Assembly: GCA_937923325.1 (NCBI GenBank)
Contig: CAKZUQ010000005.1
Coordinates: 1-41,303, forward strand
Direction of reading: 5' to 3'
DNA: 41,303 nucleotides
DNA from: an uncultured Bacteriovoracaceae bacterium
GTDB taxonomy: Bacteria > Bdellovibrionota > Bacteriovoracia > Bacteriovoracales > Bacteriovoracaceae
Shown here: positions 33,315 to 38,679 of the stretch, piece by piece
How the letters are laid out: each line of letters opens with the position of its first letter
How positions within the stretch are numbered: the first letter of the stretch is position 1
Program-made: the position numbers and the translations under genes
Notes under the pieces: generated by a model
The model's database searches: none
What the model was told of the DNA's origin: nothing
Seen by the model: only the letters and a program-made list of their open reading frames with translations

Positions 33315-34484
33315 TTAGTCGAATAACAAAAGAAAGCTTTCTAATTTTAAGAACATTTCCTCATATTCACTATTAGTTTCACTTAATAATGTAATTCCCC
33401 CACCACTACCATAAGATAACTCATTACTTTTAAAGCTAATATCAGCAGTTCGAATATTAATCGAAGCTGCTCTTAAGGATTTGTGAAATACAATAGTTGA
33501 TCCACAGTAAATTCCTCGAGGAACTGTTTCTATTTCTTGAAGTAGTTGCATCGCTTTATTTTTTGGTGCACCAGTAATACTTCCACCAGGAAAAATTTTT
33601 GAAATAATGTCTAAGAGGTTCGTTTCTTTTGGTATCTTTGTTTTTATCTGGGAGTATTGATGCCAAATTTTAGGAACAACTAACTTAGCTTTTTTAAAGA
33701 CTACTTTTGATGGAGTTAAAGCAATTCTAGTTAAGTCATTTCGCATTAAATCTGTGATCATAAAAAGCTCAGATTGCTCTTTTTTACTATTAAGAAGTTT
33801 TTGCCAAGACTTTTTATCTTGCGTTGTTGTGCCTTTAATTGGCATTGTTATTATTTCATCTCCAACAATTGAAAATAAGCACTCTGGAGAATTAGAAAGA
33901 ATCAGTTGATCTATACTTTCAATATATGTTGCATGTGCATAAGCTGATAGACTTTTCTTTTTAGAGAAAAAACTATCAAGGAAGTCTTCATAATTAATAT
34001 TCTTATTAAATTTATAAGTAAATTTTTCTGTTAAGTTTAATTGATAACAATTTCCTGCCATAAGGTTTTTTTGAACGCTATTAAATTTATCAGTATAGAG
34101 CTCTTTTGAGCTGGCAGCAACATTTTTTAAATTAATACGATTAGAAGATGTAAAATTATTATTAACAACTTTGGACTCTTTATAGAAAATTATAATTGCT
34201 AATAAATCATTTTCTTGAATATCACATATATTTTCAAAGATGTATCCAAGTTCATAGTATAAATGAAAAACAGTAGGATTAAGATTTTTGTCAGATATTT
34301 TATAAGCTTTTAATTCTTTTTTTAAATAGCTGATACTATCTTTAAACTCTATTCCATCTAAAAGGTTAACTCTTTTATTTTTATATATTGCATAGGCGTA
34401 CTGTGCCTTATTTAATAGTAGGAGTTTATTGGTATTTCTTAATTTGAATAAACTAAAAAGCTTACTGTTGTTTTTGCTGTTCAT
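33315..34484 (-). CDS. PabB-like chorismate-utilising enzyme
   Basis: 389 aa from the ATG at 34484 (overlaps dnaB by 23 bases). The frame continues upstream to a TTG at 34535 but without support. The C-terminal chorismate-binding domain is clear: PIKGTTTQD, LFMITDLMRNDLTRIA, FPGGSITGAPKNKAMQLLQEIE, YCGSTIVF, IRTADI, and YGSGGGITLLSETNSEYEE. Together they fit aminodeoxychorismate synthase component I (folate, p-aminobenzoate branch). The pabA and pabC genes are not here; an anthranilate synthase cannot be fully ruled out. Confidence 0.85.
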   Translation of the reverse strand: MNSKNNSKLFSLFKLRNTNKLLLLNKAQYAYAIYKNKRVNLLDGIEFKDSISYLKKELKAYKISDKNLNPTVFHLYYELGYIFENICDIQENDLLAIIIFYKESKVVNNNFTSSNRINLKNVAASSKELYTDKFNSVQKNLMAGNCYQLNLTEKFTYKFNKNINYEDFLDSFFSKKKSLSAYAHATYIESIDQLILSNSPECLFSIVGDEIITMPIKGTTTQDKKSWQKLLNSKKEQSELFMITDLMRNDLTRIALTPSKVVFKKAKLVVPKIWHQYSQIKTKIPKETNLLDIISKIFPGGSITGAPKNKAMQLLQEIETVPRGIYCGSTIVFHKSLRAASINIRTADISFKSNELSYGSGGGITLLSETNSEYEEMFLKLESFLLLFD

Positions 34485-35805
34485 GATATTGAGGAGACAG
34501 TTCTGCAAATTTTGTCTGACTAGCAATCCATGCAAGTTCTACAGTACCTTGTTCCCCGGCCCTGTTCTTTGCAATGATAACTTCGGCAATACCTTTTTTA
34601 GGTGAATTTTCATCATAGTACTCTTCTCTGTGAAGAAGCATAACAATATCGGCATCCTGCTCTATTGAACCTGATTCCCTTAAGTCTTGAAGTTGTGGCC
34701 TTCTATCTGTTCTTGATGTTGCTGAACGATTCAACTGAGATAAAGCTATAATTGGGCACTTTAGTTCTTTTGCCAGTTCTTTAATCCCCCTTGAAATTTC
34801 TGCAATCTCTTGTTCTCTTGAACTTTTTTGAACATGGGGTTTCATTAACTGAAGGTAGTCGATAATAATCATACCTAGACCTTGATCAGTCTTAACTTTT
34901 CTGGCCTGAGATTTTATATCTAAAATTGTTGTTCCTGCAGAATCATTTATGAATATTGGAACATTAGATAGAGTTCTAATCGCAGTTGCAATATTTCTCA
35001 TATCGACATCGTTGTAATCATTTGTTCTAAGTTTTCTAGAATCTACATTTGCTTCACTTGAAAGAAGCCTTCCAGAAAGTTCAGGCGATAACATCTCATA
35101 TGAGTAAACCATAACAGGTAGATTACTTGCCTTAGATGAGTTCACAGCTAAGTTTAAAGCAAAAGCAGTTTTTCCCATTGCTGGTCTGGCTGCAATAATA
35201 ATCATCTGTCCGGCCTGTAGACCTAATAACTTCTTATCGACACTAGTAAACCCAGTTGTTAGTCCTAAAATCTCACCTTCTTTACGTTTTCCTTTTTCCA
35301 TATTCTTTAAGTTTTCTTTTAAAGAATCTTTTAAAGTAACAACAAAGTTAGTTCTTGTTTGACTGGCCAAATTAAAAAAGCTTGATTCAACTTCATCTAA
35401 GAATGTTTTTATATCTCCAGTAAAATTCATTCCCTGGTCAGATATTCTCATTGAGTTTCTTACGATATTTCTTAGAACTGCTTTATTTTTTACAATTTTA
35501 GCATAGTGATAAATATTAGCTGATGAAGCTGTATCTTCAACAAGTTCTACGATAGCACTTTGACCACCTATAGCTTCTAATTTACCTTTATCATTTAAGT
35601 CTGAGCAAACACTAATTATGTCGAAAGGTTTATCTGTAGTATAAAGACTATTGATACTTTCAAAAATTTGAACGTACTGAGGGTGATAAAAATCATCTGC
35701 TTGAATTTGAACATCAGTGACTTCATCGAAAGCTTTATTATCTACTAAAAGTGATCCAATAAAAGCTTTTTCAGCAATAAAATCGTGAGGTAATTCTTGA
35801 CTCAT
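34462..35805 (-). CDS. dnaB: Replicative DNA helicase DnaB
   Basis: 447 aa hexameric helicase for chromosome replication. The N-terminal DnaB domain (about 1-100; PHDFIAEKAFIGSLLVDNKAFDEV) and the RecA-like motor with Walker A ARPAMGKTAFALNLA near 209, Walker B IIDYLQLM, and the arginine finger region SQLNRSATSR...DLRESGSIEQDADIV are all present. It lies just downstream of rplI, in the classical rpsF-rpsR-rplI-dnaB order. Confidence 0.97.
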   Translation of the reverse strand: MSQELPHDFIAEKAFIGSLLVDNKAFDEVTDVQIQADDFYHPQYVQIFESINSLYTTDKPFDIISVCSDLNDKGKLEAIGGQSAIVELVEDTASSANIYHYAKIVKNKAVLRNIVRNSMRISDQGMNFTGDIKTFLDEVESSFFNLASQTRTNFVVTLKDSLKENLKNMEKGKRKEGEILGLTTGFTSVDKKLLGLQAGQMIIIAARPAMGKTAFALNLAVNSSKASNLPVMVYSYEMLSPELSGRLLSSEANVDSRKLRTNDYNDVDMRNIATAIRTLSNVPIFINDSAGTTILDIKSQARKVKTDQGLGMIIIDYLQLMKPHVQKSSREQEIAEISRGIKELAKELKCPIIALSQLNRSATSRTDRRPQLQDLRESGSIEQDADIVMLLHREEYYDENSPKKGIAEVIIAKNRAGEQGTVELAWIASQTKFAELSPQYHEQQKQQ

Positions 35806-35864: not shown

Positions 35865-36437
35865 TTATGCTTCTGATTCTTCTTCAGCTTTAGCTGCAGC
35901 TTCTTCAGCTTCTTTAGCAGCAGCCATTTCAGCTCTAAGTCTCTTAGACTCTGCCATCGCTTCTTGCTTAGCTTTTAGTTCAGCCATTTGCTTTTCATCA
36001 GCTTTAACTTCGATCTTAAAAGTCGCGTCAACACCTTTGAATAACTTCGCTTTAATTTCGTACTCACCTAAAGTTTTGATAGCAACATCAACGTTAATTT
36101 GTCTTTTTTCAACTATTATATCTTGCGCTTCTAAAGCTTTAGATAATTCACTAGCTGTAACAGTTCCAAATAAAGATCCATTTCCACCAACTTTTTTAAT
36201 TAAAGTTAGTTTCGTAGAACTTAGTTTTTTAGCTGTTGCAGTAGCTTCAGCTTTTTCAGCCTCTACTTTTTTACCAAGCATTTTTTGGTAATCATTCATT
36301 TGCTTAGAGTTAGACTCATCAGCTAAGATTGCTTGTCTATTAGGAATTAAAAAGTTTCTAGCGTATCCTTCAGATACGTTTACGATCTCTCCAACACTTC
36401 CTAAAGACTTAACTTTATCTGTTAATATAACCTTCAT
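35865..36437 (-). CDS. rplI: 50S ribosomal protein L9
   Basis: 190 aa. The N-terminal rRNA-binding domain MKVILTDKVKSLGSVGEIVNVSEGYARNFLIP is canonical, and the connecting helix and the C-terminal domain follow. The C-terminus is about 35-40 residues longer than the usual 150 and ends in an Ala/Glu/Lys-rich coiled-coil tail (AEMAAAKEAEEAAAKAEEESEA). It lies between the DUF2232 gene and dnaB. Confidence 0.96.
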   Translation of the reverse strand: MKVILTDKVKSLGSVGEIVNVSEGYARNFLIPNRQAILADESNSKQMNDYQKMLGKKVEAEKAEATATAKKLSSTKLTLIKKVGGNGSLFGTVTASELSKALEAQDIIVEKRQINVDVAIKTLGEYEIKAKLFKGVDATFKIEVKADEKQMAELKAKQEAMAESKRLRAEMAAAKEAEEAAAKAEEESEA

Positions 36438-36455: not shown

Positions 36456-37424
36456 TTATTTCTTTATAAAAAATCTTCTAAAATTAAAAAACATATCAAA
36501 TAGTCCAATCAAAACTAATATGTAATTTGCAGTGACCATGGTGAATACAATAAGTATGGTTCTAAATATACCTGTTACATTTACATAGTTTAAGAAACTA
36601 ATATAGATCCCAAAACCTTGAAAAAAGTAAAATACACTTAAAGCACTTATTAATACACTTCCAATCGTTGGTAAAATAGTCGAAAATTGATCTCCAACTA
36701 AAACCATTGCAAGAGATATAATCACTAGCCATATCAAATGGTCCGGCAGTCTTATATACATCAAGCTAAACTCTGATATCGCACTAGATTTAGTTCTAAG
36801 TAAGAATCGCTGGCTTCGAATCAACAAAAATAGATTAAACCAAATAATCATAAAAGATCCTGCTACAAGGTAAGCTGGTGCTTTCTCGATAACAGCATCT
36901 GCAAAAAGATTTGGTTGATCTAAAAGAGTTAAAGTTTCAAAAACTTCAGCTGACTCTCCTGATTTCTTTAACTCTTCTTTTTGAAGGTCAAAGGCCTCTT
37001 TATTTTCAATAATTGTGTTTAATACAAATTGCTTTAGAGTTAAATTTTTAAAGCTAAGAGCTGAGTAACTGGCCATACTAATCGAACCAATTAAAACAAG
37101 TCCTCCAATAAATATTCCTTTAACAGGAGATATCTTAAGCCTAATAATCTCTGAAATCATAATCGAAATAAGAGTTACAAGGGCATAAACAGCAAAACTA
37201 AAAATAGACTTAAAAATAACAGTACTTACAAAGTAACTTATTACTAAAAGTATTAATGATAAAATAATTCCTTTTTTTCTTCCAATAAACGATGACGCTA
37301 AAGCCAAAGGATAAGGAGAAAAAACTGACATGAAGACACTAGCAGACATTAAAAGACTTGTTACGCCTAAAATTACCGCTCGCCCTAAAGAGAGCTGAAT
37401 ATTTTTATCATCAACTGATTGCAC
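36456..37424 (-). CDS. DUF2232 (YybS-like) membrane protein
   Basis: 322 aa with seven or eight membrane segments (LGVTSLLMSASVFMSVFSPYPLALASSFIGR, GIILSLILLVISYFVSTVIF and later ones). The arrangement, and its place between rpsR and rplI, is that of YybS/DUF2232 proteins in firmicutes and other phyla. GTG start, with no strong Shine-Dalgarno, ten bases after the rpsF-rpsR stop. Confidence 0.8.
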   Translation of the reverse strand: MQSVDDKNIQLSLGRAVILGVTSLLMSASVFMSVFSPYPLALASSFIGRKKGIILSLILLVISYFVSTVIFKSIFSFAVYALVTLISIMISEIIRLKISPVKGIFIGGLVLIGSISMASYSALSFKNLTLKQFVLNTIIENKEAFDLQKEELKKSGESAEVFETLTLLDQPNLFADAVIEKAPAYLVAGSFMIIWFNLFLLIRSQRFLLRTKSSAISEFSLMYIRLPDHLIWLVIISLAMVLVGDQFSTILPTIGSVLISALSVFYFFQGFGIYISFLNYVNVTGIFRTILIVFTMVTANYILVLIGLFDMFFNFRRFFIKK

Positions 37425-37434
37425 TTAAGATCAA

Positions 37435-38031
37435 TTATCTAGCTACGTGATTGTTCATGTAACTGATAAGTCCAATACATCTACCACGCTTAACTGCTGT
37501 GTTAGCTGCTCTTTGGTACTTAGGTCTTAAACCAGTAACTCTAGCTGGAGAAATTTTACCAAACTCGTTTACTAACCATGAGTAAGAGTTTGTATTTTTC
37601 CAATCTGGACGAGTTTTCTTTTCAGAAAAATAACAAGACTTTCTCTTAGCAAATTGCTTCTTCTCTTTAATAGAGTCAATAGCGTCTTCACCTTGAACAG
37701 AAAATGGGTTTACATAAGTTTTAACGATCTCTGCTTGATCAGCGTCAACACCTAATTTAATGAACATAAACTTTAAAACGTCTTCAGAAATTTTAAATCT
37801 TCTTTCTAATTCTGTGTTACAGCTAGTGTTTGACTTGTACATAATGTAGAAATAGTTTCCACGTACAATACCATTTGAAGTTGGTTGAGCAAATTGTTTT
37901 ACTCCCCAGTTTTCATCGATTAGTACTTCACCATCGAAATTAGATATTGTTTCTTTAACAATATCAGTTACTTTTTTGACTGCATCTTCGCCCGCTTCCG
38001 CACGAAGAACAAATGCCGATTCATAAATCAT
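37435..38031 (-). CDS. rpsF: Fused 30S ribosomal proteins S6 and S18
   Basis: 198 aa in one uninterrupted frame. Residues 1 to about 100 are S6 (MIYESAFVLRAEAGEDAV, ENWGVKQFAQPT, NYFYIMYKS, LERRFKISEDVLKFMFIKL). A Lys/Glu-rich linker of about 25 residues follows. Residues about 128-198 are a full-length S18 (KRKSCYFSEKK, WLVNEFGKISPARVTGLRPKYQRAANTAVKRGRCIGLISY). Separate rpsF and rpsR with ssb often between them are the norm. No Met, and no ATG/GTG/TTG in frame with a ribosome-binding site, occurs in the junction, so internal initiation of S18 is not supported. AGGAGG lies five bases before the ATG. S6 and S18 are direct partners on the 30S platform, so the fusion makes structural sense. Confidence 0.93.
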   Translation of the reverse strand: MIYESAFVLRAEAGEDAVKKVTDIVKETISNFDGEVLIDENWGVKQFAQPTSNGIVRGNYFYIMYKSNTSCNTELERRFKISEDVLKFMFIKLGVDADQAEIVKTYVNPFSVQGEDAIDSIKEKKQFAKRKSCYFSEKKTRPDWKNTNSYSWLVNEFGKISPARVTGLRPKYQRAANTAVKRGRCIGLISYMNNHVAR

Positions 38032-38057
38032 ACATTCCTCCTGGATTTATATATAAA

Positions 38058-38083
38058 GCCCCTAAATTCAAATACTTAGGAGC
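38058..38083 (-). promoter_or_regulatory. Leader hairpin of the S6-S18 gene
   Basis: On the minus strand GCTCCTAA / TTAGGGGC (one G-U) forms an 8-bp stem in the leader, 15 bases before the AGGAGG of the fused gene. The CTCCT in the upstream arm is complementary to AGGAG of the ribosome-binding site, so an alternative pairing could hide it. The CCG-containing bulge of known S6:S18 leader motifs is not evident. Confidence 0.4.
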
Positions 38084-38274
38084 GAGATTTGTGTATAGAT
38101 TATTACTATTTTATAAATGTGCACGTAAGATAACAGAAAAACCGCTATAGTTAAAGATGTTTTTATAAAGAGGACAAATCTACTTATTACAGCAAGTTAA
38201 TGCAAAGCAAAACAACTTGAAAGCTTATCAACATCTAGATATAACCTTTCTACAAACATAACAAAGGATGAACT

Positions 38275-38679
38275 ATGACAGAATTAATTCAAGAAATCAT
38301 TAGTAAAGTTGGTGTTAACCAAGATCAAGCTGAAGGTGGCCTAGGTGCAGTTTTAACTTTTGCTAAAGAGCAATTAAATTCAGAGAATTTCTCTAAAATT
38401 ACAGAACAAATTAATGGAGCAGATGAAATAATGCAAAAGTTTTCTAATCTTTCAAACACTGAAGCTGGTGGGATGAACTTAGGTGGACTTCTTGGTTCTG
38501 CAACGTCTGCATTAGGAATTAACTCTGACAACCTTGGAGGAATTGCATCAATCGTTTCAAATCTATCAAGTCTTGATTTAGACCTTGATACACTTAAGAA
38601 ATTTGCTCCCATTATTAGCAATTTTCTTGAAGCTAAAGGTTTTGGAGATATTGCATCTAAAATCAATACTTTACTATAA
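38275..38679 (+). CDS. DUF2780-like protein
   Basis: 134 aa. QAEGGLGAVLTFAKEQLNSENFSKITEQINGADEIM...GGLLGSATSALGI has the pattern of DUF2780 (VcgC/VcgE) proteins: a helical bundle with a Gly-rich middle. No signal peptide; the function of the family is unknown. AAGGATG precedes the ATG closely. It is followed by a strong hairpin. Confidence 0.8.
   Translation: MTELIQEIISKVGVNQDQAEGGLGAVLTFAKEQLNSENFSKITEQINGADEIMQKFSNLSNTEAGGMNLGGLLGSATSALGINSDNLGGIASIVSNLSSLDLDLDTLKKFAPIISNFLEAKGFGDIASKINTLL

Follow-up and report, generated by a model that had tools for sequence, protein, structure and literature searches.

To our knowledge, bacterial ribosomal proteins are nearly always encoded by separate genes, even when they bind as pairs. 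In Escherichia coli, the C-terminus of S6 and the N-terminus of S18 are both modified. Passages of PMC4647458 describe these two proteins as forming a heterodimer before they meet the rRNA-S15 complex, and report that repression of E. coli rpsF requires overexpression of both S6 and S18. One widespread and one Chlorobi S6:S18 leader appear in passages of PMC7247131. Passages of PMC11791143 state that zinc is bound by the CX2CXnCX2H motif of bacterial S18 in two solved ribosomes, and that in humans an iron-sulphur cluster bridges bS18m and bS6m. We found no paper describing an S6-S18 fusion in the open-licence PMC literature. Fused gene clusters are treated in general in PMC2837039, whose passages (12 of 13 places) do not name S6-S18. 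Though no paper was found, such a fusion is visible in JGI annotation, where some proteins are named 'ribosomal protein S18/ribosomal protein S6'; it is new as far as the literature searched shows. Other JGI names mention just one protein, S6 or S18, and a count of marker genes may therefore overlook the second.

The window analyzed here, a stretch of 41,303 nucleotides from an uncultured Bacteriovoracaceae bacterium, contains a fused rpsF-rpsR gene on its minus strand. The frame opens with ATG at 38031, closes with a stop at 37437-37435 and encodes 198 residues with no internal stop; read on the plus strand, the same stretch has many stops, as would be expected. The gene and its parts are as follows.

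37435..38031, minus strand: fused rpsF-rpsR gene, 198 codons and a stop (frame, domain profiles, relatives)
37714..38031, minus strand: bS6 part, residues 1-106, with the Pfam S6 match at 3-92 (profile; predicted fold that of solved S6 chains)
37654..37713, minus strand: linker, residues 107-126 as delimited by eye (modeled with low confidence at 113-117; length variable among relatives)
37438..37653, minus strand: bS18 part, residues 127-198, zinc motif incomplete (profiles, motif)
38037..38042, minus strand: Shine-Dalgarno AGGAGG, with a conserved CC (38043-38044) directly before it (leader alignment)

Profile searches found both ribosomal proteins in the frame, and all four scores exceed their curated cut-offs. 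Pfam S6 (PF01250) matched residues 3-92 with 69.2 bits against a cut-off of 27, and Pfam S18 (PF01084) matched residues 139-189 with 49.8 bits against 21. The NCBIfam models gave 45.6 bits for S6 (TIGR00166, cut-off 42.9) and 56.8 bits for S18 (TIGR00165, from residue 127, cut-off 38.75). These scores agree with the initial annotation, made from the sequence alone, which had read the single 198-codon frame as a full S6, a linker and a full S18. The AGGAGG that it placed at the front of the gene is there as well. Its Lys/Glu linker proved to be variable, good conservation being limited to the last few residues (K/E/D/R).

The fused gene is a real, clade-wide fusion of two ribosomal proteins. 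A search covering 5.8 billion proteins returned 349 matches to the fused protein; 120 were listed, one of them the window protein itself, and all 120 contain both domains. A profile built from 43 fused proteins returned 759 matches, again with both Pfam domains in each of the 120 listed. The fused proteins of the nearest relatives are 93%, 90%, 83% and 77% identical to that of the window over the whole length, and the fusion is therefore no slip in the window's record. Scanning genome contigs yielded 67 loci, comprising 63 fused, three split (L064-L066) and one truncated where its contig ends (L067, from G027). These loci are mostly named Bacteriovoracaceae, Halobacteriovoraceae, Bacteriovorax, Halobacteriovorax or Oligoflexia, and nearly all come from MAGs, with one H. 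marinus isolate (L063) among them.

We surveyed the phylum using 368 genomes around the H. marinus isolate. An S18 match was present in 332 of them, and 11 of the 36 genomes without a match belong to the clade (G035, G041, G044, G049, G058, G071, G072, G082, G113, G115 and G126). The clade is defined as G001-G129, the near part of the phylum list, which we take to be the class Bacteriovoracia. We scored a fusion where the S6 match lay in a frame of the same length and on the same contig as the S18 frame. By this measure, S6 and S18 share one open frame of 203-252 residues in 110 of the 118 clade genomes with an S18 match. Split, adjacent rpsF and rpsR genes were found in five (G024, G025, G026, G045 and G077). 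A fused-type gene in G083 (L099) has an in-frame TAA between its halves and no ATG, GTG or TTG thereafter before the S18 core; this TAA may be an error, the mark of a pseudogene or a site of read-through. The five split genomes and the one with a stop indicate that the fusion is not indispensable. G027 and G121, with S6 and S18 at contig ends, were set aside. S18 gave a single match in each of the 118 genomes, as did S6 in every genome except G086. The second S6 of G086, on a 4.4-kb contig (C102; L121/L229), has the higher Pfam score and is either contamination or a true extra copy.

There were no fused frames in 206 genomes outside the clade, where the longest S18 frame has 167 residues; this count takes in 206 of the 214 outside genomes with S18 and omits G146-G149, G152-G154 and G156. 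Unlike in the usual operon, rpsF and rpsR lie hundreds of kilobases apart in G133, G134, G139, G140, G141, G145 and G168 (29 kb versus 890 kb in G133, for example). These distant genomes are presumably Bdellovibrionia. The initial annotation had raised the prospect that all relatives share the fusion, and this proved true of most of the clade, with the split and interrupted genomes as exceptions, and of none of the genomes counted outside it. Separate intact rpsF and rpsR genes, which it saw as a possible refutation, did not materialize when second copies were searched for in the relatives' genomes, where the S6 of G086 is the sole extra.

We also looked for S6-S18 proteins of other kinds. With an artificial E. 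coli S6-S18 query, both domains occurred in 21 of the 120 listed proteins (8000 scored). Eighteen of the 21 were read. S6 comes first in 16 of them (P0168-P0176, P0178, P0179, P0181-P0183, P0189 and P0216; 11 with a Met at the S18 start, five without), and S18 comes first in P0184 and P0208. These readings resemble Gammaproteobacteria, one being so named, and have one or two member sequences and at most one contig each. They give the impression of occasional mergers or chimeras and not of a state that has become fixed, though a few of those lacking the Met may be real fusions. A plasmid collection gave 35 records matching the fused protein, four of them over at least 80% of the query, and in H1, H3 and H4 the match is unbroken. 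The annotation of H1 shows two genes. For H3 (NZ_CP084075.1) and H4 (NZ_CP040452.1), where the match spans 95-97% of the fused protein at about 23% identity and no feature is annotated, S6 and S18 may be fused or merely adjacent.

An AlphaFold2 model built from 43 sequences had a mean pLDDT of 72 and a pTM of 0.56, with a weak S18 half and low confidence at residues 113-145. With 108 sequences these values rose to 79.5 and 0.75, and the linker was lowest at residues 113-117. The S18 half is modeled with moderate confidence (10-residue means of 53-83 from residue 131). Foldseek, run on the 43-sequence model, returned an S6 chain as its best match (93 aligned columns, TM-score 0.93 by target length, rmsd 1.2). 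Sequence matches in the PDB each cover one part only, S6 or S18 (60 of 68 listed). Among fused proteins the linker varies in sequence and also in length, the S18 cysteine falling anywhere from residue 132 to 148.

W42, G43, A48 and Q49 of the S6 half and W144, K145, K181 and R184 of the S18 half are invariant in 108 aligned fused proteins, the latter four corresponding to Y23, K24, K60 and R63 of E. coli S18. In passages of PMC4647458, K60 and R63 are reported to form bonds with the C719/C720 pair, and mutations in Y23/K24 and in the S6 loop 44-49 were used to disrupt the partner interface. Judged by this alignment, the RNA- and partner-contact residues are kept in the fused protein.

The gene is preceded by a structured leader RNA that is conserved in the clade.

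38058..38083, minus strand: leader hairpin GCUC...GGGC, with compensatory changes among 63 distinct leaders (alignment, covariation)
38029..38106, minus strand: whole leader, matching the clade covariance model with 55.3 bits, the only match in the window (its sequence is one of the 64 in the model)

The model was built from 64 aligned leaders out of 68 (L014, L017, L050 and L056 were left out), the 68 being the 73 fused loci minus L113 and L114, which repeat L007 and L008, and L021, L040 and L043, which lie at contig ends. With some exceptions, the leaders share CUCGCUC, then a hairpin that closes with GGGC and an A/U stretch, followed by CC and the Shine-Dalgarno sequence; CC directly precedes the latter in 62 of 64. 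The hairpin helix, set by eye on the alignment, has eight pairs, seven of which changed on both sides, and 89.4% of cells pair. Its covariation score of 0.376 was reached by 0 of 500 shuffles and fell to 0.15-0.16 when the partner was slid by one column. RNAalifold alone predicted five of the eight pairs, four of them with compensatory changes.

We ran the clade model, allowing E up to 10, over 66 other loci totalling 254 kb, nine of them rpoB loci that served as controls. It gave 13 matches, all ending within about 40 bases before the S6 match, and none in the rpoB controls. Six have E < 0.05: L231 (G041), L230 (G086), the split locus L100, the interrupted locus L099 and the separate-gene outgroups L124 and L074. 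The remaining seven, with E from 0.075 to 2.7, carry little weight individually. L064, L065, L066 and L098 (little upstream sequence on the contig), E. coli and most outgroup loci were unmatched. With a split member and separate-gene outgroups among the matches, such a leader probably existed before the fusion did.

No Rfam family matched the clade's covarying rpsF leader RNA in the searches made. A search around the window leader that allowed E up to 10 gave three matches, and one over 16 loci with E up to 1 gave a single match; none of these is the Rfam RpsF_leader (RF02893), for which the E. coli positive control scored 110.1 bits. The clade's leader does have what characterizes S6:S18 leaders, a structured RNA just ahead of rpsF with a conserved cytosine pair, and it may be a further variant beside those of PMC7247131. 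We infer that its cytosines play the part of the cytosines in the E. coli leader. Given the covarying hairpin and the CC before the Shine-Dalgarno sequence, autoregulation of the fused gene is probably kept, a reading by analogy since RpsF_leader has no match at the window.

The fused gene likely heads an operon with the three genes that follow it.

36456..37424, minus strand: DUF2232 membrane protein gene, next in the likely operon (profile, gene order)
35865..36437, minus strand: rplI (bL9), likely operon partner (profile, gene order)
34462..35805, minus strand: dnaB, likely operon partner (profile, gene order)

Four protein queries found the fused gene, DUF2232, rplI and dnaB all in order in 68 of 97 loci, which are mostly fused but include split and outgroup loci and a few that overlap; the other 29 are partial, often at a locus end. 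On the other strand, a divergent gene for a DUF2780 (VcgC/VcgE) protein (38275-38679, plus strand) adjoins the ribosomal operon.

We considered whether RimI, the S18 N-terminal acetylase, was lost with the fusion and rejected the idea, as TIGR01575 shows no pattern. It scored over its cut-off in 8 of 51 fused genomes, 0 of 6 split or interrupted genomes, 0 of 19 genomes in G130-G246 and 4 of 4 of G271, G312, G338 and G348.

The S18 half differs from the clade's split S18 proteins in its zinc motif. The window protein has C133, S136, R169 and Y172 at the four positions of CX2CXnCX2H and so lacks the motif. In the fused form, surveyed over 73 loci and 120 proteins, the first cysteine is present without exception and neither the second nor the third is ever retained; the histidine remains in 18 of the 73 loci and 15 of the 120 proteins. 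A complete CCCH is found in all five split S18 proteins of the clade (L064-L066, L098 and L100). These split proteins also carry a long acidic/polar N-terminal extension. Outside the clade, CCCH is present in 20 of 35 S18 proteins, a set that favors high Pfam scorers; the 15 unfused proteins without the full motif indicate that its loss does not need a fusion.

The explanation that we consider probable, drawing on sequence comparisons, is that bS6-linker-bS18 works as one chain from synthesis to ribosome. The gene would yield a single, presumably uncut polypeptide with bS6 as its N-terminal half and bS18 as its C-terminal half. The halves would dock on each other like the ordinary heterodimer, with the flexible linker as a tether, and the chain would enter the 30S platform as one unit. 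It would most likely repress its own mRNA by binding the hairpin of the leader together with the CC that adjoins the Shine-Dalgarno sequence. The fusion would have arisen within or before Bacteriovoracia from the adjacent rpsF and rpsR of an operon rpsF-rpsR-DUF2232-rplI-dnaB; the fused form lacks the S18 zinc site. If the chain is not cut, a 1:1 stoichiometry of S6 and S18 follows.

Other accounts of the locus were weighed against this one. The initial annotation had itself named a sequencing error that merged two frames as a possible refutation. Some of the scattered Gammaproteobacteria-like readings, with a Met at the S18 start in 11 of the 16 S6-first ones, may be errors of this type, arising in sequencing or assembly. 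Such an error in the window is at odds with the 110 genomes and the many database proteins that have this fusion and diverge from the window protein by degrees, and we give the idea next to no credence. A further rival is initiation of S18 within the fused frame, either in addition or as the main route. The sole ATG, GTG or TTG from codon 89 to C133 of the window gene is codon 89 itself, within the S6 core; codons 96-133 contain none, which bears out the initial annotation's remark that the junction has no in-frame start. Between codon 96 and the S18 cysteine, an ATG occurs in 47 of the 71 distinct fused genes and only GTG or TTG in seven more, and 38 of the 83 candidate junction start codons lie exactly seven codons before the cysteine. 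A few could serve as starts, the strongest anti-SD pairing being -7.7 kcal/mol. However, the median pairing is weaker at junction start codons (-1.0 kcal/mol, n=83) than at other internal start codons (-2.7, n=330), with -10.3 at gene starts (n=69), and the two proteins are kept in one open frame in all 110 genomes. Since 17 of the 71 genes, the window's among them, have no junction start codon, internal initiation appears unlikely, and on these sequences very much so. The ubiquitin-ribosomal protein fusions of eukaryotes are precursors that are cleaved. The chain studied here could likewise be a precursor whose linker is cut by a protease, leaving ordinary separate S6 and S18 to join the ribosome. 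The low model confidence of the linker suggests that it is probably exposed, and a conserved charged stretch with a nearly invariant K122 (108 aligned) precedes S18. Yet the linker itself is variable and shows by eye no conserved cleavage motif, and the stretch that is conserved is part of S18: of the five separate S18 proteins, four have DKDRRM or DKDKRM at this place and the fifth (L098) has ERDRRM. We regard cleavage as rather improbable, and the fused protein is very probably made and used as one chain. Clade-wide conservation, single copies (G086 apart), the open frame, the junction without a start and the conservation of both halves support the genuine fusion that the initial annotation proposed.

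A different alternative, compatible with the one-chain explanation, concerns origin only: the fusion may be ancestral with later splits, or may have happened several times. RpoB alone did not resolve the base of the clade, and a tree of RpoB, RpoC and SecA was better but not decisive. It comprised 30 genomes under LG+G4 without a mixture model, with less than a quarter of the columns filled in G045, G074 and G081. SecA has two copies in each of G024, G025 and G026, and the copy with the higher total score was used; for G050, with rpoBC on contigs C12 and C22, we used C22. Two rpoB-rpoC loci in the one G050 assembly suggest a mixed bin. In the three-marker tree, a 16-row group (96/98) unites the split genomes G045 and G024-G026, 11 fused genomes and G083, other fused genomes lying outside it, and the tree implies at least three changes of state. 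These data do not reject one origin (p-AU 0.171, or 0.39 if G077 is not forced outside). In a tree of S6 and S18 with all columns (44 rows), the fused genes and G083 form one branch (96/80), a result that counts against several origins but loses its support without the trait's own columns. When the linker and zinc columns are removed, the single branch is gone and fused G074 falls outside all others (93/86, not starred), and one fused branch is again not rejected (p-AU 0.319). All five split S18 proteins have the complete CCCH that is absent from every examined fused protein, so later splitting would require the motif to be regained. With the trees undecided, the shared loss of the zinc motif is the main argument for a single fusion. 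We lean towards a single event, and leave later splits or several fusions a substantial, though smaller, share of the probability.

The fusion removes both a free S6 C-terminus and a free S18 N-terminus. The 110 sampled fused genomes, one per species, constitute a natural experiment on whether S6 and S18 must arrive separately and whether either acts alone, and so on the reason for which ribosomal parts of this kind are ordinarily separate in cells. The fusion is also a possible marker for the clade, which is related to bacteria that hunt other bacteria. The S18 metal site may stabilize the S18 end near S6. A bolder and rather doubtful idea is that covalent fusion took over the job of zinc, the metal site being lost after the two proteins were tied, and that this gave a zinc-free, always 1:1, one-step, one-chain autorepressor unit.

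We compared the fused protein to the closest known systems. Among the ubiquitin fusions, RPS27a and RPL40 are ribosomal proteins within a fused chain, as here, but their partner is not a ribosomal protein. The Gammaproteobacteria-like readings have the same domain order in 16 of 18 cases; unlike the Bacteriovoracia fusion, they were not seen as a clade-wide state. The zinc-binding bS18 described in passages of PMC11791143 belongs to the same S18 family, and its CCCH occurs in the clade's split members but is never complete in the fused proteins examined. E. coli bS6 and bS18 with the rpsF leader involve the same two protein families, whose RNA- and partner-contact residues persist in the fused protein. 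E. coli, however, has two genes with priB between them and a leader that the Rfam model recognizes, whereas the clade has one chain and the window leader goes unrecognized at E up to 10. In the mitochondrial bS18m-bS6m pair, as passages of PMC11791143 present it, S6 and S18 are likewise joined beyond plain contact, there by a metal cluster and in this clade by the peptide chain.
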